The notes under the pieces are model-generated. The model was not told where the DNA came from, ran no database searches, and saw only the letters and a program-made list of their open reading frames with translations. The translations under genes were made by a program, and so were the position numbers. A stretch of DNA of 64,000 nucleotides, taken from NCBI GenBank assembly GCA_000442125.1, contig KE546980.1:1054001-1118000 (forward strand), read 5' to 3'. This document shows positions 32,974 through 64,000 of this stretch, piece after piece. The first letter of the stretch is position 1. Each line of letters opens with the position of its first letter. The DNA is from Opeltia flavorubescens. Lineage: Eukaryota; Ascomycota; Lecanoromycetes; Teloschistales; Teloschistaceae.

Positions 32974-33744
32974 TCAATATCTCATCTCTACATCTAGAGC
33001 AGTCAAGTTCAGAACAGCTCCATCCGCACTCTGATAATGCAGGTTGCCTCTACCACCATCTGTATAATTCTTCCCATAATATTCGATCAAATTAGGGTAA
33101 CGCTTCTTGGGCGGATTAGTATAGTAGACAGTCCCACCTGTCAAAATGCTCTTAGAGGACGAGATCTGCCATTGTCCAGGACCTGGAGGGGTAACATCTC
33201 TTCTTCGAATGCTCAGCGCATCATCACGCTTTGCAAACCAGCTACTTCCGTGAAAACCTAACGCTCGGATTCCGGTCGCCCCAATCCAAGCAGAAGTTCC
33301 ATCTTCAATATTGGGCGGTACCGACTGTGGTATACGAATATAACTCGCTCCTGCTGCCGGTATCTGCCCGAGCCCTGGAAGGAAGTAACTCCACACAAGG
33401 TGCCAGCGGCCTCCGGGGAAGGATGGTCCTACGTGGGTTGCAAGCACACGGCCATCGCACCCGCTTTGGAGGTTGTGAACAGGGTTCTCCTCGTTACGCC
33501 AGACGATGGCAACTTCAAGATCGTGCAGGTCGGAGAACTCGACTTCGCCGCGTGGACCCCGACGGAAGAGAGGAGCGCAACACTCGCCGGGAAGAAGGTC
33601 TTCGCATGTTTCGTCGTAGATAGGAGCGTTATGGCCGTCGGAGGCAGCGTTCACGATATTACGGATGACGACTGTGACTTCGAGGGACAGGGAAGAGCTG
33701 AGGAGGAGTAAGAGAAGAAAAAAGAGGGTCCTGCTCGGCTGCAT
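32974..33744 (-). CDS. Secreted protein of unknown function
   Basis: A single-exon frame of 256 residues. It has a clear signal peptide (long Leu/Ser hydrophobic core in residues 6-21). The mature part has a cluster of Cys residues (TCEDLLPGECCAPLF, plus SGCDGR), likely two disulfides, two N-glycosylation sequons near the end (NYT and NLT), and dibasic sites (KRD and RRRD) that a Kex2-type protease could cut. I recognise no catalytic motif. It could be a secreted effector-like or cell-wall protein. It lies next to the kinase/patatin/HeLo island, although the intervening gap is 1.4 kb. Confidence 0.7.
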   Translation of the reverse strand: MQPSRTLFFLLLLLLSSSLSLEVTVVIRNIVNAASDGHNAPIYDETCEDLLPGECCAPLFRRGPRGEVEFSDLHDLEVAIVWRNEENPVHNLQSGCDGRVLATHVGPSFPGGRWHLVWSYFLPGLGQIPAAGASYIRIPQSVPPNIEDGTSAWIGATGIRALGFHGSSWFAKRDDALSIRRRDVTPPGPGQWQISSSKSILTGGTVYYTNPPKKRYPNLIEYYGKNYTDGGRGNLHYQSADGAVLNLTALDVEMRY

Positions 33745-35157
33745 TGTAGAGACAGGGTTTGTGATGGTGTCGTACCACGAGAGTCGTAGTCTACTTTGAG
33801 GATATGAAGCATCATCTTGTGATGTTTAATCCTTGATGATTCCAGTGTCCTGAGGAATGCTCGGGTGAGCGCGTGTAGGAGCTGCCAGCATACACGCGAA
33901 TCCCTCATCAATTAGCGCAGAGAGATCTCATCCATCACGATAGTATTAGAGCTCACGCATGGAGTGAACGCGCCCTGTAGCTGCTACTCAAATGAGGTAT
34001 ACTACATTTGGACAGGCGAGATGGTGAATTCCCTGATGGAGAAGTTGCACGGAGCTGATCTCGCATCGAGGTAACAGACGGGATCCAACAAGTTATGATA
34101 CAGCCTTCTTCTTCTTGTTGATGACATGGTCACTTGCAATATCCGCCCATTCTTTCTCGGATAGTCTATTAATCAAGTCCTACGATTTTTACGCTGTTGA
34201 GTGTTATGCGGTAAAGAATCTGCAAGGGTTCTCTGTACCAGAACCGGGAAGGCGCATATCAAACTCGATGAGTGATTTACAGAAGATGTAGTAGAACTTC
34301 CTCTAATACTGGCTATCAGGTAGGTAATAAGCTTTATGCCAATAGACTTGGCTGAAGGTAAGCTTTTCCGGATAAGCGATCTTTATGCGTCCTTCGTGTC
34401 CAGCATGTTATATGCAAGTGGCTGGTCACTAACCGGGGTTCAACTTTTCGTTACACCAACCACAGCAAGAAGTATCTAAGCACTACTATTTGCTGAACTG
34501 AAAGCCTCTGAAATATTCTCGTGGTTTTTCTTTCTAAGATTGTTTTTGCAAGCTCAGGTGCGAAATAATTGAGATTCCATCACCCCGGTCAATGATAGAC
34601 CGCTTGCATATTACATGCTGGACATGAAGTACCAGCTGGATTGTTTCACTGTCCAAAATTATCCGATACTATTCGAGTACCCGTACTTCAAAGCCCTTTG
34701 ATATTATTTTCGAGTTTTTTGCGTCAACGGCCTCGCAGTGATACGGCGAAGACATCGGACCTTGAGCTACAGTCAAAGCTAAAAGGACGATGGCTGACGT
34801 CGAAATGATCTGCGCCAAGCGCTGTCACCGGCATTGGTCTGGATCTAGTATGGACGGTCTGGGTCCCCTGTTGACAAGGCTGATGGAATCGAGTCTTCTT
34901 GAAGGAGCTCTGACAACCACGAGCTGTCGCCACTCACACCACCGTCGCTTTACTCCTAATACTGTCGCGCGTTTTTCCTTTTTCTCTTTGGTCCTCGGAC
35001 TCATTTCAGAAAAGCTCTCTTGTCCGATTCCTTGTACATATCGCCATGGCGCAATATAATTAATACAGCTGCTTCCACCATTATACCTTCGCAAAATATA
35101 AGCTACTCTATAGCAATCGGGACCAATTACATCATACAATACTTACGGCCATGAGAT
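33745..35157. other. Intergenic
   Basis: About 1.4 kb between divergently oriented genes, low in coding signal and rather AT-rich. The frames at 34724-35139 run on both strands without motifs. I call nothing. Confidence 0.4.
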
Positions 35158-37729
35158 ATGAGCGAGCAGTCAAGCAGCCGCGAATATGTCGGCGATCCGA
35201 GCGCGCAGCCTCTCAACAGGAAGCAATCTGTAATGAGAAGGTACTTGGAATCTGGCATCGATTTTGAATGGCCTGAGGGCGTCGGAGAGCGAGACGGCAA
35301 CCATTGCAGGCTGAACAGGCCTGACATTCCCCTGGAATGGCTATCAAGAATATCCGACAAAAAAGCGAGCATCGACATCTACCGGGGTGGAGAACAGTAT
35401 GCGTTTAAGGAGGCATTTGCGGTGAAGACAATTCGGGGGAAGACAACCACAAAAGCGAAGGACCAGGCACGTAATGAGGTGGAGACTATGAAAGATCTTC
35501 GTTACCCACACGTCGCGGCTCTCTTGGGAAGCTTCACATATATGGATCGTTTGAGTATACTAATATTTCCTGCCGCACCTTGCGATCTACACGTATTCTT
35601 GAAAGTAATATCGAAGGAGATGGGCGACCTACGACGGGGACGGAGTCCTTTGCAACAAGAGCTGGCAAACCACAACCCAAGGGCAGGCACCCCGGATAGC
35701 CGAAGCTCTACGAGTAGTTTTTTAGAGAGGTCACGCTCTCCGAGATTCTCAACGCATTCACTTGGCGGTCCAAGCGCTGAGGTAGTGCACGAAAATTGGC
35801 CGCTCAAAATGCCTTTGCCGGCAAAGGTAGACAGTCTGCGCGGCTACTTCGTGTGTCTTTCGCAAGCCCTGAGCTATATACATGAGAGCGATGTTCGGCA
35901 TAAAGGTGAGAGAAAACAGCTCGTCACATGGGAGCAACGCTGATTGCAATGGGAAGATATCAAGCCAGCAAATATATTAATCGATGCATCCGGTTCTGTT
36001 GTTTTGACCGATTTTGGCATTTCACGGCGTTTCCCGAAGAAGGCTTCACATGTTACTAATGACAAATGGGAGTGGACTCTTAAATATGCCAGTCCGGAGA
36101 TCATGCAAGGCAAAAAAGTACTGCGAGATGTAAGCATTTCCATGCCACTGTTGCTGCTTTTCTCTCTGCATGTAGTGCTCGATACGAAGCTATCGTTCTC
36201 GATACATCGATTTGCCCTCGAAAGGCATGACATCACGTTGGAGTAGCTAAAAATTTGTCGACTATCCTTAATCAACTGCATTCCACAAGCAACGCTAACT
36301 CTCACAACAGGATCCTTCCGATGTCTTTTCACTCGGATGCGTTTTCCTCGAGATGGCGTCCCTAATCTTAGGGCGAGACCTGCAGACTATGCGCGACCAC
36401 TATTGTTCCACTGTCAATGACTCCAGCCTGAAGGATGCATACTACTACAATCTTGAAAGAGTATATGATTGGATACATTGTATTGCGAGGCCGCGGGAAT
36501 CCGAGCCCAGATCTGCTCCGGATTTGACAGGCGAGAGAATCATAGGCCAGGATTTTGTCCCAGATCTGCATTCAAGAATGGTAGAAGCATTGACCACGCT
36601 AAGTCTTATGCTAGACAAGGACCCTCACAAACGGCCAACCGCCAAAAGTCTCTGGGAGAAGTTTCAGCACGTCAGTGCACAGATATGTCGCGATTGCGAT
36701 CCAAGGTCCGAAGAGAAATGGACACCTAATTTGAGGCAGAAAGACGCAGCCGAATCAGGTACAAAAGCTCGACGACGATCGATGCACCGTATACGTGAAG
36801 AAGCCCTGGATAACTCAGGTCTGGAAGCCAGCGATGATCAACCGGAAAATGGAGATCTTCTGAATCCATACTATCGGCCCGATCGCAACAGCTCGATGGG
36901 TCGGAGGGCTTCTTCACCCAATACAGGACGCAACCAAAGCCGCACTAGAAGACAGTACAATTCTGCACCCGTCCATGTACGGCCACAAGGAGAAGAAGCT
37001 TTCAATCTGCACAGCTTGACTGGCCCTACTATGCCGGCTGCAGAAGGGAGCGAGATGAGACGGACGTCGTCGGCAACAGAAAACCGTAGGATCAGCATTC
37101 AGGAAACACCATCAGGATCCAGATCCATGTCACCCAAGAAGCGACGACCGATTTCCGAGAGTCGCTTCCAGCCCGGCGTTGCACAAGCTCCTGACACGAG
37201 CATGCTTCCACCGCCTGTCCCTTCATCTAAACGAGATCAAGTTCAACAGCCTTCACCTCCGTTCAAACACGAACATGCGCCGGCCACGCAAAGTTCTTTT
37301 GGATCCTCCCACTCGCTTGCGTCCAAGAAGCCGGCTTCAAAGCCCGAAGATATCGGCATGCAAGAGAAGGCTAGCCAGAACAGGCACAATGCACATCAGA
37401 ACCTGGAGCAACTAGACTCGTCGACGCAAATAATAATCTATGACCTCGCAAAGAAGAAAGCTTACGTCGGAGCTTACGCTCAAGTTGAAGGTAATACTAG
37501 CGATTCCTGAATCAATATTGATCTAATATCTGCAGATCAAATACCTGGTAAAGACTATATATCTCGACCTTTACCACGGTTTGGTCAAAAAATCCAGATC
37601 GGAGAGAAAGGCTCCCCCATCGCCTTTGTTGACCTGGGGTCTTTGGGCACATGGACAAACGCCAGACGTATGGCGGGCGTCTTTCCTACCCTCTACGTGC
37701 TCAACTTCGCTCACCAGTCTCTCGGCTAA
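35158..37729 (+). CDS. Serine/threonine protein kinase with long disordered linker and C-terminal domain
   Basis: Predicted 764-residue kinase; exons 35158-35905, 35957-36129, 36311-37490 and 37536-37729 keep phase. The kinase fold shows the ATP-binding Lys in FAVKTI, an alpha-C Glu in ARNEVETMKDLRYPHV, a catalytic loop HKDIKPANIL (completed by splicing), DFG in LTDFGISRR, and SPE in place of APE in KYASPEIM. The glycine-rich loop is not canonical. An insert rich in Ser and Arg sits between the lobes. After the kinase (to about 520) comes a basic Ser-rich linker, then a small conserved-looking C-terminal unit (IIIYDLAKKKAYVGAY, then IAFVDLGSLGTWTNARRM). It is probably active. I do not recognise the subfamily. 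It is convergent with the patatin gene. Confidence 0.78.
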
Positions 37730-38204
37730 GTACTTGACTTTGTCTTCGGACACATTCATCTGACCGTCGCCCTTCCCTTCAACCTCTACATCCATTCTGA
37801 CTCATTATGGTTCCTCGGCGCTTGTTGTTGGGAGTCCATGACAGGATTCTTGACCAGCTTCTGTCCCAATAGCCTCGAGATTAAATCTCTTGATCTTGTC
37901 TGATCATACAGGTCCAGTGATTTAGGTTATAGTGACGAATGGTATCTCGCACTTTGGGACCTGGTAGTGCTTACCTTCCAACCCTTCAGCAAGCTTCTCG
38001 TCACCGACCTTCGGTCATTGCAGAGCTATGACACGACCTCGTCTCAAAGCTCTCATCGCAATACCCACAACAAGCACAGCTTGCTGCATCTTTGTTACCA
38101 ATGGTCAATATCGGGCGCCCGAAAGTGTCCTGAGCGTGACCAAGCGAACCTCAGTCATGGCTCGGTATTTCTTCACTTTGGAGTCCACGCACAGTGTAAG
38201 TACT
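37730..38204. other. Intergenic between convergent genes
   Basis: About 475 bases. A plus-strand frame (about 37967-38263) and an overlapping one from 38028 run into the end of the patatin gene. They have no motif and I do not call them. Confidence 0.35.
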
Positions 38205-39920
38205 TCATTCGCTATTCGTTCTCCCCTGGTCGAGCAAAGTCTGTATTTCTTGGAAATTCTTAGCATCGGGCGGTGCTTTTCCATGGACTGCTTGTAGATG
38301 ATCCATCAATTCATTTCGATTTGAGAAGCGCAGTGACTGATATTCGCAATTAGGTATCGGGCAGCGGTATCTCGTCCCTGCCGCAAACATCTCCCATCGC
38401 ATCGTCTGGGCTCGGAGCAGCCTTGCACGGACTAGAATATCCGCACAGTCGTTGATCTGCATCCTTACCTCTGGAGACTCGAGGTATCGATTTGTGGCTC
38501 TCTCGATACGTGCGCGTGTAGTCTCTCCGCTCTCAATCGGCTTCCATTCGTCAAGTCGTACATCTTGGAGACCGCCTTGTACATCCCAGCGATAATATTC
38601 GAAACGGTCCTTCTCCTGGGCCTGAAGAATCTTACGATGTACCAGATCCGAGATATCGTTGAGATCTTTTTGCAACGCATGTTTTGCCTTTGTGGTATTG
38701 CCTTTTGCATTGCCGGTTCCAAGGCTGAGGAGCAATTCGATTGACTCGTGAGCTTTGTTGTATAAGCTCACCTCCTTGTACATCTCTAGACTTGGGTTGT
38801 TTATATTGACCGCCGCATCATAGTATTTATACTCAAATAATCTTGTTGATTTGAAATATGAAGGCGCAGCTGATGTTGCTCTGGCAACTTGCCAGATGTC
38901 GAAATTGGGAGTTTCGTTAGGATTCCTTGGATAGACAAAAGGCTCCGAAGTCCGATGGTTATGTTGGTAAGACCGGAACACGTACGGATATGAGATCTTC
39001 TCAGTTAGATCCCACCTGTTGGAACAGACAATCGTCCGACATCTGACTGTGTCCGATTTGAATTTGCCTTCTTGTTCATTAGCACTTGGCTGCGCCGGCC
39101 GTAGCGTTGTCCTAAACAAATCCTCGAGTGCATCACGCCTGGTAGAGCTGTTATATTTATTCAATGATCGCTTCAGACGTGAGGGTGGTTTCTCAAAGAC
39201 TCTGGCTGACAGGCCTTTGTACGTGTCTAAACATTCATCTACAGTCATGCGTAACCGCCCCAGCATGATTGCTATCAAACCGCCTGTACTCGACCCGCCA
39301 ACATAGTCGAAGTAATGGCAAGGCCTGTACGTATTCTGTAATTCCTTCATCATCGGATCGCTGTGAAGGGAGGTTAAATCGATTAAAGGTGAGAAGGCGC
39401 TGGAGTCGGCTCGTGGGTCCATCTCTTTCTCGAAGACGGTAATCTTGTCCATTAAGCGCTTCAAAAGCAGCAAAGAGGAGTAACCGCGCACTCCACCACC
39501 GTCGAGACTCAGTATATATTTCCTCGCCCAGGGACTGTCCTCGTCCACCGTGGCTATAGAAGGGTCGACCGTGACCACGTATTCATCGTCCATCTCCTCT
39601 GTCGTGAGCTCTGTCGTCTCCTCGGTTGATGTAAAAGTCGATTCTCGCGAGCCGCTGGCTCCGATGGATGCTGTCGCGGCATCATAGGACTGCGCGAGAC
39701 TCTTGGCCCAGGAAACGTTCTTCGGCGGTGAGCCTACAGGGCTAGCACTCGTCGGGGAAACAGAGGGTGATATCATAATAGAGGAATTATTTGCGCTTGC
39801 AGAATCAGTATGTGATGATCTGGACGACATTGACTGGGAGTATACCAAGATCAGACCAGCAGCATATTTCATAATAGACACAAAGAATACAGAAAGATAA
39901 CTGCTCTCAGCACAATTCAT
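38205..39920 (-). CDS. Patatin-like phospholipase with C-terminal C2H2-like finger
   Basis: A single-exon frame of 571 residues. The patatin domain runs from about 133 to 400: oxyanion motif DGGGVRG at 140-146, nucleophile elbow GGSSTGG with Ser 211, and the second catalytic residue Asp 368 in YYDAAVNINNPS, where most patatins have DGG or DGA. The region after it is helical. The end carries C-x4-C-x15-H-x4-H (Cys 520 and 525, His 541 and 546), a C2H2-like zinc finger. Patatins release fatty acids from membrane lipids, and in several fungi they act in heterokaryon incompatibility and NLR-linked cell death. Residues 1-30 are hydrophobic and may be upstream of the true start; Met 31 (39830) is an alternative. 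It is divergent from the HeLo-pseudokinase gene. Confidence 0.85.
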   Translation of the reverse strand: MNCAESSYLSVFFVSIMKYAAGLILVYSQSMSSRSSHTDSASANNSSIMISPSVSPTSASPVGSPPKNVSWAKSLAQSYDAATASIGASGSRESTFTSTEETTELTTEEMDDEYVVTVDPSIATVDEDSPWARKYILSLDGGGVRGYSSLLLLKRLMDKITVFEKEMDPRADSSAFSPLIDLTSLHSDPMMKELQNTYRPCHYFDYVGGSSTGGLIAIMLGRLRMTVDECLDTYKGLSARVFEKPPSRLKRSLNKYNSSTRRDALEDLFRTTLRPAQPSANEQEGKFKSDTVRCRTIVCSNRWDLTEKISYPYVFRSYQHNHRTSEPFVYPRNPNETPNFDIWQVARATSAAPSYFKSTRLFEYKYYDAAVNINNPSLEMYKEVSLYNKAHESIELLLSLGTGNAKGNTTKAKHALQKDLNDISDLVHRKILQAQEKDRFEYYRWDVQGGLQDVRLDEWKPIESGETTRARIERATNRYLESPEVRMQINDCADILVRARLLRAQTMRWEMFAAGTRYRCPIPNCEYQSLRFSNRNELMDHLQAVHGKAPPDAKNFQEIQTLLDQGRTNSE

Positions 39921-40627
39921 AAAGGACTATAAAGCTATGCATAGAGCAAGGCAGAGGGCTCTATTCACAGTGTCAGGGCTGTTGGACTCGATCCTCCACG
40001 GGCGAAGTGCCTGCTGACCCGTATGGTCCTTTTCGAGGGATCTCGCTATTCAGCCTCATGCCGAGAGCCGCTGGTGGTGGAGGCGGATCTGACCAGATGT
40101 GGTTTAGCACCATCCATCTCGAAACTCAGTCATCGAGGCTGAGCCAAATCCAGTGATCCAGAATACACGAGGAGAACCGTGAGTCTTTCGCTGCTGAGAA
40201 TTGCCACGGGACGAGCCTGGCGGGCCTTGAAACGCCACATGTTATGCTTATACGGCCGGGAGTCCCCAGGCTTTACGTAGGCGGATTCGTCGCCAGGCGA
40301 CGTCTACCTGAGGTTTCTCTACCATCGCGTATTCTTGCGACACTATCGAAGGCTGAGGTTTGGTTATCTCGACAAGGCTACAGTTGATCTGGAATCATAT
40401 ATACTTGCTGGCGACAAGATTCCTCGTCGCCTCTCATACGTCTCCTCAACTCGAAATAGTCTCCACTTCTAATTGCCACTACATACCTAGCAAGCATCTA
40501 TAATGTGATATTGACATCGACGTTCGCAGCTATAATACCCTGTCATCAACTCTGAGTCACCGAGACATTACCGGCGAGTCATACATCTCGAAAGACACCT
40601 AACGTTTGCCGAATCTAATCAGAAACC
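39921..40627. promoter_or_regulatory. Shared promoter of patatin and HeLo genes
   Basis: About 700 bases between divergent start codons. It carries four copies of GTCGCC in alternating orientation: the palindrome at 40288-40302 and a second inverted pair at 40410-40431. Co-regulation of the two genes is inferred. Confidence 0.5.
40288..40302. promoter_or_regulatory. Palindrome CGTCGCC-A-GGCGACG
   Basis: A perfect 7-bp inverted repeat around one central base, within the divergent promoter. The same GGCGAC/GTCGCC hexamers reappear as an inverted pair with a 10-base spacer at 40410-40431. Candidate binding site for a dimeric regulator. Confidence 0.4.
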
Positions 40628-42872
40628 ATGGACCCTGTCNGTGTCTCCATCGGAGCTGTCTCCCTCACGATACAGCTGCTGGACGGCTGTGTAAAAGGTA
40701 TCGCTTCTAATTCATTCTCAAGCTTCTGTCCATTTGTTTTGCCTCTGCAACTCAAAAATCACAATCTATTTGTGTTTTTGCTGGAAGTGTAGTAATAAGC
40801 CACAACGTAGTCATACGGCATATCCTCTCTTCTGACGTATATTGACTTTTTTCACGATTGGAATGCTGCATTGAAAATTCGGTGATTTCAACTTACTGCC
40901 GTATTTCACCGAATTTTAATACAACCAATGGAACGAGGCTGGATGCCTCGCTCCATGTAGCTAATAATGGATATGTATGTTCACAACTGGTTTCTCCCTT
41001 TCGATACATCGCACAAATACGATCATGCTTTTCTTTACAAAGGTCATATTCATGATACTTACCGTGCCTATAGGCTACCAGTATTTTATTGCTGCGGCAG
41101 GTATGCCCGCTACTTGTCGATACTTAAGGACGCGACTGCAAATAGAATACCTCCGTCTTTCAAATTGGCGTGAAGTAGCAGGACTCATAGAGTACCAGGA
41201 AGGTCAAGATATACCAGACAGCTTAAAGACCGACAGATTGGTATTGGTCGCGATACTGAGTGAGATCCGTGCAATGATGGATGACTTCGCAAATATCAAT
41301 GGCGAGTACAAGGACCAGTTGCGCCCTGATGAAAGCCATGCCGCCAAGAAGGATGCCGAGGACATTGACCTAGTTGAAGAATTCTCGAATATTACCCTGG
41401 AGTATGAAAAGAAGGCTGTGCAAAGAAAGTACATTCGTGGCACGAATCATATGATCAAGCACATGCGTATGGCTAAGGAACTAGTCAAGAACCCCAAGAG
41501 GCTCGTCTGGGTGGCATTCGATGAGCAAGTCTTTGTCAAGCTACTAGGCCGGTTGACCGAGCTCAATGACTACTTGCAGGAACTTCTCCGTGGGCACGAA
41601 GCACGGAAGCTCGAGCAGGTCACCGAGAAGACTTACATGGAAATGGTTCAAGTTCGCTCCTCTGTGGATGAGCTCAAGCATCTCGTGACAGCGGCCATGC
41701 TACTGGAAGACCGCGGCCACTCCACAACAAGCGAACTCAGACGACGTAACGATCAAGTCTTAGCGAGACTCGCAAACTTCAAGTCCCTCAACGCCGCTAA
41801 CGAAGCACCCAGTGGCCAAAAGCCTCCGGACTACGAGAGCGTGATCTCCGCCACCCATCTCAACTACTCGCAAGTATACTACGAAGAAGATACCTCATCC
41901 CCATCATCTAGAGCCCGAGCTGAAGGCAAGTTCTACCCCGGCGACGGCACCCACAGCCAAGTCTGGATAGAATGGAAATCCTACAAGGAGAAATGGGATT
42001 CCAAACTCGACAAATACGTCCCACAAAAGGACAACATCCGCCGCGTCCGCGAACTCGTCGCTCTCCTGCAATCCACAAAACCCAATGAATTCTGCTCTCC
42101 TCGCTGCCTGGGCTACTTCGACGATCGCGACGACGCCCTGCACAGCGAGCACGAAAGCCGTTTCGGTCTCGTGTTTGAAAAACCTGCTGCGGATCTCAAA
42201 CCCGTCTCCCTGCATGATTTGCTAAAAGCACCTACTCCCTCACTGACTGAGCGGATTGCTCTAGCCCATAAAATCTCCGTCTGTGTACTCTATCTTCATG
42301 CTGTCAATTGGCTGCATAAATCCCTTCGGAGCGATAGTATCATATTCTTCCCCCCCACCCGCTCCTTCTCGCAGCCCTACCTCACAGGCTACGAATATGC
42401 ACGCGCGGACCGCCCGGGGGAAACCACAACAGGAGGCGACGTAGACGAGTGGACGGAGTTATACATGCACCCTGACTACCAAGGTCCCGGCACCAAGGGC
42501 CTCTATAGAAAAACATTCGATATCTACAGCCTTGGGATCATACTACTGGAGATTGCGTACTGGCAGCCTGTTGAAGAGATTTTGAAATTGGATATGGAAA
42601 GTGAGGATATTTTTGGGGATATCAAGGAGATTCGGGAGGGGTTGTTGAAGAAGGAGGAGGAGGAGGATGATGGGGAAGAAGAGGGTGTTCTGGAGGGGGT
42701 GAAGGTCAGGCTGGGGGAGAGGTTTGAGAGTGCGGCGAGGGGGTGTTTGCTGGGGAGGGAGGCGTTTGGGGTTGGGGAGGAGGAGAGTGAGGTTGATGTG
42801 GGGACGGGGGCGAGGTTGCAGAGGGGGTTTATGAGGGTTGTTACGGATGGGTTGGAGGGGATTAGTGTTTAG
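40628..42872 (+). CDS. HeLo-domain pseudokinase (MLKL-like layout)
   Basis: Predicted 622-residue protein; exons 40628-40697 and 41074-42872 join as VK-GYQYF. The N-terminal 205 residues match the HeLo/prion-inhibition family: a hydrophobic first helix (VSIGAVSLTIQLLDGCV), then YQYFIAAAG, RLQIEYLRLSNWREVAG, and a helical bundle. HeLo domains, as in HET-S, permeabilise the plasma membrane on activation. After a linker, a kinase-like domain (about 345-550) has HKS (438-440) in the HRD position with no catalytic Asp, TGY (461-463) where DFG should be, MHPD for APE, and the structural FDIYSLGIILLE helix. It therefore looks catalytically dead. The C-terminus is Glu-rich. Codon 5 contains an undetermined base (40640). 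The call of a cell-death effector is family-based inference. Confidence 0.83.
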
Positions 42873-43988: not shown

Positions 43989-44495
43989 CTAAGCCTCGAA
44001 AGCAATCCCACGCTTCGTCGGCTGTCCAGCCACCGGGAAAGCACACCTACAGCCCTTTCGCGCGTCATTAAACGAGGTCCCGATTTTCCCGCAGACGCAT
44101 CCATTGTTACCAATCGAGTATTTTCCGTTTCCATACTTGAAACTGAAATACGGGTCGCCGACATCGGCACTTATCGCCTCGACCGTGAGCACATACTGCA
44201 GGAAATTTTCCTTGATGACGGCAGGAGTGCCACATGTTGGTGGATTATAAACGCCAAGGATCTTGCAGGTATTATCCATGATGCGCAGCGAGTAGCCACC
44301 GCTCGTAGTCCCTTGTAGGCCGAGACTTGTAAGATCGACGGTCATGCCGAAGGTGTAGTAGCCGTCGCCCTGATTCATGCAGAGAGCGGTCTCTGTTTCT
44401 TGGCCAGCGCTTTTGCTGCCGGCGGCGAGATCACACTCTGCGACTGCCATGCAGAACAGCGCAGCGAGATTGAGGATTGATGCTAGCTGAACCAT
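43989..44495 (-). CDS. Small secreted cysteine-rich protein
   Basis: A single-exon frame of 168 residues with a strong signal peptide (cleavage expected near AVAE-CDL). The mature part has eight Cys in the order single, single, single, single, then GCVCG and GCRCAF, an even number that suggests four disulfides. A KR near the C-terminus is a possible Kex2 site. The size, secretion and cysteine content fit an effector candidate or hydrophobin-independent surface protein; it is not a hydrophobin, because the CC pairs are lacking. I recognise no family. Confidence 0.75.
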   Translation of the reverse strand: MVQLASILNLAALFCMAVAECDLAAGSKSAGQETETALCMNQGDGYYTFGMTVDLTSLGLQGTTSGGYSLRIMDNTCKILGVYNPPTCGTPAVIKENFLQYVLTVEAISADVGDPYFSFKYGNGKYSIGNNGCVCGKIGTSFNDARKGCRCAFPVAGQPTKRGIAFEA

Positions 44496-45802
44496 CGTGA
44501 AGTAGAAGTTTGAGGCTAATAATTGGTCGTATGAAAGTCAAGTTTGCTTGGAGGGTTCGTCGTCAGTATGGCGTTCAATTCTGGGAGAAAGGAGGATAGT
44601 GAGAGACAAATCCATCCAGGAAAGATGTCTTATATAGCTTTCGTCTTCATTCCATTGCTCGCGAACTGGCCATGATCGAGCCGTAGGCAAGTCTTGATCG
44701 TAAGACATCTGTAGCTTGAAACTTCAACGGCGCATGTGTATTGATGATGGGCAACACACTTCTTAATGACGAAGGTATGTTTCGATCAGAAAACACACGG
44801 CACAGCGATGTGGGGTGTTTCTCAATTTGCTGTGATGTCGCGTTCAACCGAGTTGCCTCGTATGATTCGTGCAATATGGCAATGTGCTAGGACACATATA
44901 CGAGTCGCAGTATGACATTCCATCATAGGGAGGCGGTGTCGAAATCATCAGTGGTGATCGGCGAAATGAGGTCCGTTTGCAAAGACCCTGACCCGCCTCG
45001 ATTTCGAGGGGAACACATGGATTGTGCAGCATGATAAAACGCCCGGTTATTGTTGCCTATTCATGAGTATAAAGGTAAGGGTTTCGTGGAGAAAACCTGA
45101 TTTGTACACACTCTAAAGTGGAAGCATTTGGCCGATGGTCTTTTGGCCCGATATGATAAGGCTCAGCTACAGATCAATACTGCTTCGAGTGAAATCTATA
45201 ACCTGACAAAACTGAGCCGTACGGACTGGAGGGTGCCAACAATGAAGCAGTGCATAATCTACGCCTCCATGTAAAGTAGATCCAAAGTCATCCATTCAAC
45301 AGGAGTTGTTCGATCTTTGGCGAGGTGTGTATCCAAAACATTGGCTGGAGGCTCGTAGCCAGTGACGTATACACATGCAAGGCATGAAACACAAGGAAGT
45401 TCTAGAAAAAGGCTTAGCGATCGGGTGGGCTTCGGCAGACATGACGGAAGCGTTAAACTCAATGTAGTTCTTAGCAGGTTTTTCCATGTTCAAGGTCAAG
45501 AGGGCGGCAAGAACGCTCCTGCCTCAAAAAGACTAAATGCACTGTCATTTAACGCATATAAAAGAGCTAGACTGGAGTCGCTGAACCTATGTACACCTTG
45601 ATAGAAACCTACATTTCGTGCAAGAAGCTATGTATATCAAATAAATTCCAATTGATCCATTGATTACAAATTTCATTGAATTTCTCTTCTTATTTCCAAC
45701 GACGCCGCGAAGGCATACATGTGTATGACAAGCCTTCGTAATATAGTAGTTCCTCATTCATATCTCTCTCCTCTCCTCCTTTTCTAACCCACATGATTTA
45801 TT
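44496..45802. other. Intergenic
   Basis: About 1.3 kb upstream of the secreted protein and downstream of the sugar transporter. Only short frames occur, and none is supported. Confidence 0.4.
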
Positions 45803-62096: not shown

Positions 62097-62610
62097 AATT
62101 TCGCGTCCAGCAGTGATTTAAGCCTTTACATCATGCTGTAATGATACTGCTATATTTGCAGCCAGCGCGAAGTGAATGAACTGGTACATAGATCTGACCG
62201 TATCGACACAATCTGAGCCTAGCCTTTTTAGGAATGCGCCATTCGCGTCATCGTTCCTCACGTTTCTCCAACCCAATACTTAAGAGTCCCAACTTTTTAT
62301 TTACCACTGTAGAATCTTCGTCTCGTCATTCATCAATGAATTGAGCTTTGATCCACTCGTTGGATACTCTCAGCCTTGGCAATTACTAATACTACGTGAA
62401 TTTATTGACCTATCTGGTCAAGCAATGATATTTTTCCCTAGCACTTTACGGCACCCTCATTTCTCAAAATCCTCCTGACGTATCTAGCTTGAATCTATTC
62501 TGTCTCGGTTTCAGTATCGAATGCAAAGATGTCCTGAAGTCTTGTTTTTTTGAGAACCAAGCTTGCCGATTTCGTCCACAGTTGAAAGGCTCTAGGCACT
62601 TTGGTATAAT
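62097..62610. other. Intergenic promoter of the large membrane-protein gene
   Basis: About 510 bases of ordinary composition that end at a sharp change into AT-rich DNA. Confidence 0.4.
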
Positions 62611-64000
62611 TATGACTATATAAGATACTAAGTTTCTAAACTGCTAACTAGATATAATAATATAGCGCTAAGCTACTAGGCTTATAATATATTATATAGT
62701 AAACGCAATAGTTACCTCTAACAAAAAAATACTTTTACCTTAAAAGATATTATAGAACGAATAAATAAATACCTTATTCTTCGGATATCTTATTCTATAA
62801 TATAAATACCGGACACGCTACTCTACTAGTACTAGATATTAGATATCTTATTCTACTATACTATTAGTATAGTATTTTATTTTATTACTATAGTATTATA
62901 TTACTACCGTATATCTAGCGGTAGATTTCTATCGATTATCTATTTATTATATTTTATACTAAGATTTTAATAGCGTACTAGATATTAAATAAATATACTA
63001 CTACCTCGACGGCGTTAATTATATTATTAAAGTAGTTATTTAGGTTACCGGTTTACTTATTTATCGATAGTAAAAATTAGAATTTCTAAATTCTAGCGAT
63101 TATATAAGTCGCTAATAGGTAGCTATATAGATTCGAGGTAGGTAATAGATATTATAGGGTATAACTAGCTTATTAAAGCTAGAAATTATAATTTATAAAC
63201 AAATTAATTAACGCGTTTAATAACTTTAAATAGCCTAGTAAACTATTATTTAATCTTATAATTTCTATTCTTTAATTCTAGTATAATATAGTCTTTATAT
63301 AAATAAAAACTAATCTAATTATCAATTTAGAAGAATATTAATAAATATTTAATATTATACTACCGCTTTATTATTATTGCTATTAGTATTATAATATTTT
63401 TAATATTTATATAAATAAATAAATACGGTATAGAATTAATAAATACAATAGGGTATATATATCTAGAATAATTTAAGTAAAAGTATTTATTACTTATTAA
63501 AACGGTAGCAGCCGTTATAAAAATAGGTTAAATAATAGATAAAGCCGATTTGGTTTTTATAATAGGAATAGGATATTCTATAATAAAAAGCTAACTATTT
63601 AAAAATAAAATTAAAAGGTTAATATTTATTCGAATAAAATTAAATACTTCTTTAATCTTTCGTTTATATAATATCTATATTAATATAAAACCGATAATCC
63701 TATTTATACTATTATTTAAGGTAGTAGAAAGCTATACTAGTATAGTTAACTATTATTAATAATTATTAAATATCGCTAGAAGGTATTATAGGGCGATTTC
63801 AATAGTTTAATTAATTTATTTAGATATATTATCTACTAAAGGATACTATATTATAGTAAATATAAACCTAATATTAAGTCGTTTTAGAATTATAGACTAT
63901 AATTACCTAATAAACTTTAGATTTCTATCGGAAATAATAGCTTATAAAATTCCCTAATTAATAAAATATAGATAATCTATTAACGTAATAGTCTATTACG
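62611..64000. mobile_element. RIP-degraded repeat fossil, family not identifiable
   Basis: A block of very AT-rich sequence running off the window edge. TA is very common, while CA and TG are almost absent and CG is still present: the footprint of repeat-induced point mutation acting on CA sites. No open frame of note remains. It is most likely an old transposable element copy, heavily damaged and incomplete at the window edge. I cannot name its family from what is left. Confidence 0.75.

Follow-up and report, generated by a model that had tools for sequence, protein, structure and literature searches.

Do three adjacent genes of Opeltia flavorubescens, encoding an active-type protein kinase, a patatin-like phospholipase and a HeLo-pseudokinase protein, form a single inherited system, and would such a system kill cells? 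The genes lie within a stretch of 64,000 nucleotides (contig KE546980.1, positions 1,054,001 to 1,118,000), here called the window. We see an even chance that the trio is one inherited regulated-cell-death or membrane-attack module of lichen-forming Lecanoromycetes, organized in a manner similar to RIPK3 and MLKL but lacking its own NLR gene. A preliminary description, made from the sequence, had placed the three genes side by side and assigned their domains to known cell-death classes. Both statements were confirmed, the former by spliced gene models and Pfam matches. The coordinates are listed in Table 1.

Table 1. Features of the kinase–patatin–HeLo locus (positions in the window).
Feature	Position	Strand	Details
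Ser/Thr protein kinase, active-type	35158..37729	+	764 aa; Pkinase E 2.5e-32 (Pfam, spliced model)
Kinase exons	35158-35905, 35957-36129, 36311-37490, 37536-37729	+	
Conserved C-terminal domain of the kinase	37427..37729	+	residues ~680-764; intron 37491-37535 inside; homologue alignment
Patatin-like phospholipase	38208..39830	-	541 aa, single exon; Patatin E 9.6e-21 (Pfam)
C2H2 zinc finger, patatin C terminus	38283..38363	-	homologue residue counts
Divergent intergenic region, possible shared promoter	39831..40627	.	797 bp; position only
HeLo domain and pseudokinase protein	40628..42872	+	622 aa; HeLo E 1.7e-34, DUF7580 E 1.7e-10 (Pfam)
HeLo-pseudokinase exons	40628-40698, 41075-42872	+	
HKS for HRD, catalytic Asp lost	42315..42323	+	homologue alignment
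GYE for DFG, as GFE in MLKL	42387..42395	+	homologue alignment; aligned with MLKL GFE
Thr-Thr-Thr, pseudokinase activation loop	42423..42431	+	homologue alignment; candidate phosphorylation site

Layout and genomic context of the locus

The patatin and HeLo genes are divergent, as expected from the head-to-head arrangement reported earlier, and their start codons as chosen here lie 797 bp apart; the kinase and patatin genes are convergent. The splice sites of the gene models were consistent with those of relatives. The patatin start might instead be at 39776, since three of six compared patatins (the window's own listed protein among the three) start 18 residues further in. The 376 bp intron of the HeLo gene holds a 12 bp perfect inverted repeat. 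We considered a transposon at this site and rejected it, because the intron sequence was found once in the genome and thus gave no sign of a repeated element.

No match to NACHT, NB-ARC or HET was found within the window, in agreement with the previously noted absence of an NLR gene. On the same contig, the nearest NACHT and HET matches lie ~220 kb and ~234 kb past the window end, respectively, and NB-ARC had no match anywhere on the contig. The description of the trio as sitting between conserved housekeeping blocks holds in part. Of nine further window ORFs scanned, six matched Pfam families (NST1, DUF1749, two sugar transporter pieces, a histidine phosphatase and a RING-variant domain) and three matched none at E 0.01. 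The two scanned ORFs that adjoin the trio (32974-33750 and 43989-44537, minus strand) gave no significant hit in Pfam.

A six-frame search of the whole genome gave 9 patatin, 10 HeLo and 13 DUF7580 matches, with two of the HeLo matches (both in C10) probably representing one gene. By coordinates, the window pair was the only patatin–HeLo pair lying together in the genome; assuming ~10,000 genes, chance alone would yield fewer than 0.02 such neighbouring pairs. Two other proteins in the genome have both HeLo and DUF7580 matches. Among the ORFs of at least 150 aa in a 6 kb stretch around the HeLo-pseudokinase copies on C8 and C22, no patatin was seen. An ORF beside the C22 copy appeared HET-like by eye, with no Pfam match at E 0.01.

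The kinase

The kinase protein comprises a kinase domain with an insert, a long variable linker and a small C-terminal domain. Residues K90 and E107 and the HKD, DFG and SPE motifs are kept among the homologues listed; among those with a residue at the site, the Lys is present in 117/117, the catalytic Asp in 115/116 and the DFG motif in 117/117. The C-terminal domain matched no Pfam family and was beta-rich in the predicted model of the kinase, which is of low overall confidence (mean pLDDT 48) and was left out of the fold search.

The PDB matches of the kinase were led by GCN2, NEK7, CDKL3 and CDK2, with no sign of RIPK kinship (in both respects, among the best 60 of 1543 and of 299 matches). 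In a PDB profile search at 1e-10, NEK7 and CDK types were on top; at 1e-20 there was no match. Several PADLOC models matched the kinase, among them mad6 (3.4e-35) and PD-T4-6, and mad6 also matched the HeLo protein (1.8e-5), all of which was taken as general kinase likeness.

The C terminus of the window kinase reads IQIG, resembling the RHIM core, and a loose RHIM pattern caught 40 of the 120 listed kinase homologues (VEIG in 8, IEIG in 7 and IQIG in 1). A RHIM was nevertheless rejected, since the strict core [IV]Q[IV]GxxN occurred in 0/120 and the IQIG stretch lies inside a conserved, probably folded domain. The strict pattern was also found in none of the 120 listed HeLo homologues and none of the 120 listed patatin homologues. 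At the C terminus of the HeLo protein, which is the pseudokinase, RHIM was the sole amyloid-type pattern scanned.

The HeLo-pseudokinase protein

The HeLo domain occupies residues 8-227 (Pfam). The N-terminal helix was similar across the seven spliced relatives compared, and the HeLo half of the predicted model was of low confidence. A scan of viral contigs for HeLo relatives gave 61 pattern matches, 0 of which were confirmed.

The substitutions at the HRD and DFG positions (Table 1) bear out the label of pseudokinase. Among the matches listed, the HRD Asp position is occupied by G, S or A in all 119 homologues with a residue there, and the DFG position has Gly in 119/119, Tyr or Phe in 119/119 and Glu in 105/119, so that neither the catalytic Asp nor that of the DFG motif is present in any of the 119. 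Three consecutive Ser/Thr residues are found in the activation loop of 108 of these 119 listed homologues. Judging from the alignment, the Thr-Thr-Thr run of the window protein is a candidate phosphosite, which may be phosphorylated. The preliminary description had left the role of sensor to either the kinase or the pseudokinase. Intact catalytic residues in the kinase beside a uniformly dead pseudokinase make the former more plausible as the upstream part.

MLKL has the motif GFE in place of DFG (PMC5104457, in the portion consulted), and the HeLo domain is related to the four-helix bundle of MLKL (PMC12881547, likewise in part). A profile of 40 relatives of the HeLo protein matched the MLKL pseudokinase (4m68, E 1.3e-5; 4btf, E 2.8e-5), with GYE placed on GFE, at a level equal to that for LIMK1 (1.2e-5 against 1.3e-5 for MLKL). 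A single-sequence search put MAPKAPK2 first, and the highest scores in the fold comparison were for MerTK, MET/RON and BRAF, MLKL not being among the best 50 listed matches of the Foldseek or VIA fold searches. The pseudokinase thus far shows a weak sequence likeness to MLKL.

The patatin-like phospholipase

The active-site residues of the patatin are intact. Among the 120 homologues listed, the catalytic Ser181 (GxSxG) is present in 117, Asp338 in 114 and each residue of the oxyanion loop DGGG in 114-116. The two Cys and two His of the C2H2 finger were found in 120/120 listed homologues, with a Pfam match at E 0.11 only, under the family cut-off. Patatin was the one Pfam family above its cut-off in this protein, with no NB-ARC or TPR fusion.

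Conservation of the trio in relatives

The nearest relatives are lichen fungi of the Teloschistaceae. Joint retention in relatives, which had been proposed as a check on the preliminary description, was largely observed. Among the matches listed, the locus tags, which show gene order but not strand, fit the contiguous order HeLo–patatin–kinase in 19 of 21 named genomes with at least two trio genes, counting trio genes only; adjacency was not shown in the other two. The linked genomes span Teloschistales and Lecanorales. Complete consecutive triples occurred in eight named genomes, with the patatin always central (among the matches listed). Among the 120 listed matches per search, with contigs recognized by their length, 32 contigs hold all three genes and 54 HeLo, 54 patatin and 50 kinase contigs are partnerless; for listed contigs of at least 60 kb, the partnerless fractions were 8/29, 15/35 and 9/32, respectively.

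A linkage of this kind might also reflect ordinary conserved synteny, three unrelated genes having stayed side by side in an ancient segment of the Lecanoromycete chromosome that is seldom broken. Most of the named linked genomes belong, we presume, to Teloschistaceae or their close kin, a group in which synteny should extend over long distances. The distances of the linked proteins were strongly correlated (Mantel r = 0.92, 0.85 and 0.86, with 0/2000 permutations each), as is also expected from a shared species history. However, the same contiguous order is also found in Lecanorales, where identity to the window proteins is 43-58%: Puttea has a consecutive triple, the HeLo and kinase tags of Letharia are two apart, and the patatin and kinase tags of Stereocaulon are consecutive. 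Wetmoreana brouardii has a second HeLo–patatin pair with consecutive tags, and all three genes of the trio are of signalling or cell-death classes. We regard synteny of unrelated genes as unlikely, though not strongly so.

Proposed mechanism and significance

If the trio is a cell-death module, the active kinase would sense or relay a signal from some trigger, possibly by way of the conserved domain at its C terminus, and would phosphorylate the Thr-Thr-Thr activation loop of the HeLo pseudokinase. In the manner of RIPK3 acting on MLKL, phosphorylation of the loop would free the N-terminal HeLo helix for insertion into the plasma membrane. A second membrane effector would be the patatin, either cutting lipids at the same time or preparing the membrane for attack, and death of the cell would be the outcome. 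A more specific form of this proposal is an NLR-free, necroptosis-like lichen cassette of a dedicated kinase, a HeLo pseudokinase executioner and a patatin arm, in which a convergent or very old RIPK3–MLKL logic is kept as a cluster; this we put forward tentatively, as a possibility worth entertaining.

The same genes could instead make up a non-killing lipid-signalling or stress unit, in which kinase and pseudokinase control a membrane-remodelling patatin and the HeLo domain is a membrane anchor only. Such a unit would fit the strong conservation, as expected of a maintained physiological role, and the numbers of patatin, HeLo and DUF7580 matches in the genome; to our knowledge, few genes of these families have a tested function. 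Against this, HeLo-type domains are described as death-inducing and membrane-targeting (in the consulted portions of PMC12881547 and PMC10197012), and the N-terminal HeLo helix is alike in the relatives compared, making the lipid-signalling unit improbable. Least probable is the incompatibility role suggested earlier, in which alleles or partners of the trio would set self against non-self: although known incompatibility systems make use of patatin and HeLo domains and het-S adjoins its NLR partner gene nwd2 (PMC12881547 and PMC10197012, same portions), the orthologues are 75-86% identical in the nearest genus, the catalytic residues are conserved, no NLR or HET match lies within the window, and an incompatibility locus that evolves fast would hardly be expected to persist across two orders.

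The HeLo-pseudokinase architecture is already known. We know of no settled mechanism for the activation of fungal HeLo proteins with kinase-like domains, and searches of open-licence papers found no report of the kinase–patatin–HeLo-pseudokinase trio. For HeLo-pseudokinase signalling, the cluster points to a candidate for the activating kinase and to a putative phosphosite, and its three genes are few enough to be tested together in laboratory yeast. The cell-death module, if real, would add fungi to the organisms with death signalling from kinase to pseudokinase and would be a candidate immune module for lichens, in which contact with partner and microbes is permanent. A 2025 review calls, in the portion consulted, for work on the extent of the likeness between fungal HeLo proteins and necroptosis (PMC12881547).

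Comparison with known systems

With the RIPK3–MLKL system of animals, the trio shares an active-type Ser/Thr kinase found together with an executioner-type protein of four-helix/HeLo and pseudokinase domains, the G-[F/Y]-E motif in place of DFG, and Ser/Thr residues in the activation loop. It differs in that its kinase has neither RIPK signs nor a RHIM pattern and in that its genes are clustered, with a patatin included; phosphorylation and pore formation in the trio are what we infer from the genes. Fungal HELL proteins with a kinase or pseudokinase domain have the same kind of architecture (PMC12881547, in part), whereas the HeLo protein described here is retained in a trio whose other members are a patatin and an active-type kinase.

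As in NWD2/HET-S of Podospora, the HeLo protein is encoded next to a likely activator. In the trio, however, the candidate activator is a kinase and not an NLR, with the nearest NACHT match far outside the window, and the C-terminal part of the HeLo protein is a pseudokinase, in the place of the prion-forming domain of HET-S. The parallel previously drawn with the Neurospora patatin proved to be loose. PLP-1/SEC-9 likewise involves a patatin-type phospholipase with a role in cell death (putative in the trio), but the plp-1 patatin belongs to an NLR protein in which it is joined to NB-ARC and TPR (PMC12881547, as far as consulted), and the window patatin stands alone with its C2H2 finger.

The nearest PDB chains of the patatin were chains named 'Patatin', followed by a CBASS phospholipase and CapV (9kh7 and 8zr9), the likeness to these bacterial CBASS effectors being limited to the catalytic domain. 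The PADLOC 'Effector, Phospholipase' models, which we take to be CBASS models, matched the patatin at 5.5e-26.

The Three-Gene Locus

The genome comprises 34.4 Mb in 23 contigs, with the window at bases 1,054,001–1,118,000 of contig 16. The preliminary description had proposed an island of three signalling-type genes, and this island is a real, conserved trio. Splicing-based gene models place the kinase and patatin genes tail to tail, and confirm the proposed head-to-head arrangement of the patatin and HeLo-pseudokinase genes in the window. The HeLo gene intron is 376 bp long, compared to 51, 181 and 45 bp for the kinase introns; it contains a 12-bp perfect inverted repeat, and its sequence is single-copy in the genome. 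One unresolved base (40640) falls in HeLo exon 1. At the window end, the GC content drops to 32%, then 13–26%, with a (CA+TG)/(AC+GT) ratio of 0.04–0.23, a mark of strong repeat-induced point mutation.

Features of the locus (splicing-based gene models) and further HeLo–DUF7580 proteins in stretches L031 and L032, read around copies on other contigs
Feature	Position	Strand	Exons
Kinase gene	35158–37729	+	four
Kinase C-terminal domain	37427–37729	+	
Patatin gene	38208–39830	−	one
HeLo-pseudokinase gene	40628–42872	+	two
HeLo gene intron	40699–41074	+	
Unresolved single bases (N)	40640, 43362, 52325, 55527		
Low GC	62501–64000		
Low (CA+TG)/(AC+GT)	62751 onward		
HeLo–DUF7580 protein	L032 1395–3125		
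HeLo–DUF7580 protein	L031 1066–4890		

Linkage in Related Fungi

Among the best 120 of 334 HeLo, 900 patatin and 1033 kinase matches, 29, 32 and 21, respectively, carried locus tags from named genomes, and 21 tag prefixes were common to two or three lists. Joint presence in relatives, proposed earlier as a check, was largely borne out: among these matches, the tags fit a contiguous order in 19 of the 21 genomes. All three tags were consecutive, with patatin in the middle, in eight (Gyalolechia ehrenbergii, Blastenia crenularia, cf. Caloplaca sp. 3, Wetmoreana brouardii, Villophora microphyllina, Ikaeria aurantiellina, Letrouitia transgressa and Puttea exsequens). HeLo and patatin tags were consecutive in five genomes, patatin and kinase tags in three (including Stereocaulon virgatum), and HeLo and kinase tags lay two apart in three (including Letharia lupina). 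The two misfits, on different contigs, were Xanthomendoza sp. 2 (patatin 006187, kinase 007096) and Alectoria sarmentosa (HeLo 006753, patatin 000388); in a second Alectoria assembly, HeLo protein P0042 and kinase P0262 are on a same-sized contig. Wetmoreana has an additional HeLo–patatin pair with consecutive tags.

Taking equal size in bp as the same contig, the 120 listed matches per gene had 47 (HeLo–patatin), 51 (HeLo–kinase) and 51 (patatin–kinase) contigs in common, 32 of them with all three genes. Jittered contig sizes gave 0.15 HeLo–patatin coincidences on average (119 of 120 HeLo rows). One contig size, 53644 bp, exposes a weak point of size matching: its patatin and kinase clusters carry the name Fulgogasparrea, its HeLo cluster that of Wetmoreana sp. 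5. Partners were present on 66/120 HeLo, 66/120 patatin and 70/120 kinase contigs among these matches (21/29, 20/35 and 23/32 for contigs of at least 60 kb); unpaired contigs may reflect fragmentation, clustering, matches beyond those listed, or real absence.

Pairwise protein distances of linked genes were correlated (r = 0.92, 0.85 and 0.86 for the three pairings), and nearest neighbours were the same in 31/47, 31/51 and 33/51 cases. Shared species history alone could explain both observations; for the linkage itself, we consider ordinary synteny a serious but less likely explanation.

The top named relatives among the matches listed were from Gyalolechia ehrenbergii, a lichen fungus of the Teloschistaceae (identity 83% for the HeLo protein, 86% for patatin, 75% for the kinase). 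The remaining names are presumably Lecanoromycetes too, a placement confirmed for all four looked up. Protein cluster P0244 (source “lgn”) matches the window kinase with 100% identity across 61% of its length; another sequence collection therefore includes this species or a twin.

Catalytic Residues

Residues were counted by aligning each window protein with its own 120 listed homologues. Where the position was present, the kinase β3 lysine was kept in 117/117, the catalytic aspartate in 115/116 and DFG in 117/117. Patatin kept its serine in 117/120 and aspartate in 114/120, and all four C2H2 ligands in 120/120. In the kinase domain of the HeLo protein, the catalytic aspartate is replaced by G, S or A and the DFG aspartate by glycine (each 119/119 homologues with the residue), with glutamate third in 105; the β3 lysine is kept in 117/120, and 108/119 have a run of three Ser/Thr in the activation loop. 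HeLo residues 2–23 are gaps in 90 to 106 of the 120 rows, and many homologues seem to be unspliced predictions. Seven longer relatives have a common N terminus, approximately MVDPxGxxxGAxSLxxQLLDGC with small changes.

At the C terminus of the kinase, about 85 residues form a conserved domain (consensus in relatives LPR..Q.IEIG...IA.VDLG.LG....RR..G.FP.LYVLN), for which no Pfam family was found. This domain is a candidate for the sensing part.

Predicted Function and Genome Background

A cell-death function is our best guess for the trio, predicted from its parts; of the elements of the first reading, strict incompatibility has the weakest support. The claim that no NLR gene is present holds for the window: NACHT, NB-ARC and HET domains were searched for in the whole genome, and none lies within these 64 kb. 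Elsewhere there are NLR-like matches, and a distant NLR could act on the trio. The six-frame search, exon by exon, gave lower bounds of at least 22 NACHT (18 above the cut-off), 4 NB-ARC, 88 HET, 9 patatin, 10 HeLo and 13 DUF7580 matches. Judged from match coordinates across the whole genome, patatin and HeLo genes adjoin only at the window locus. Two further proteins combine HeLo and DUF7580 matches. The reading frame on contig C8 spans 1274 aa, including a long additional C-terminal region, and visual inspection showed no GFE-like motif in it; the protein on contig C22 reads GFE.
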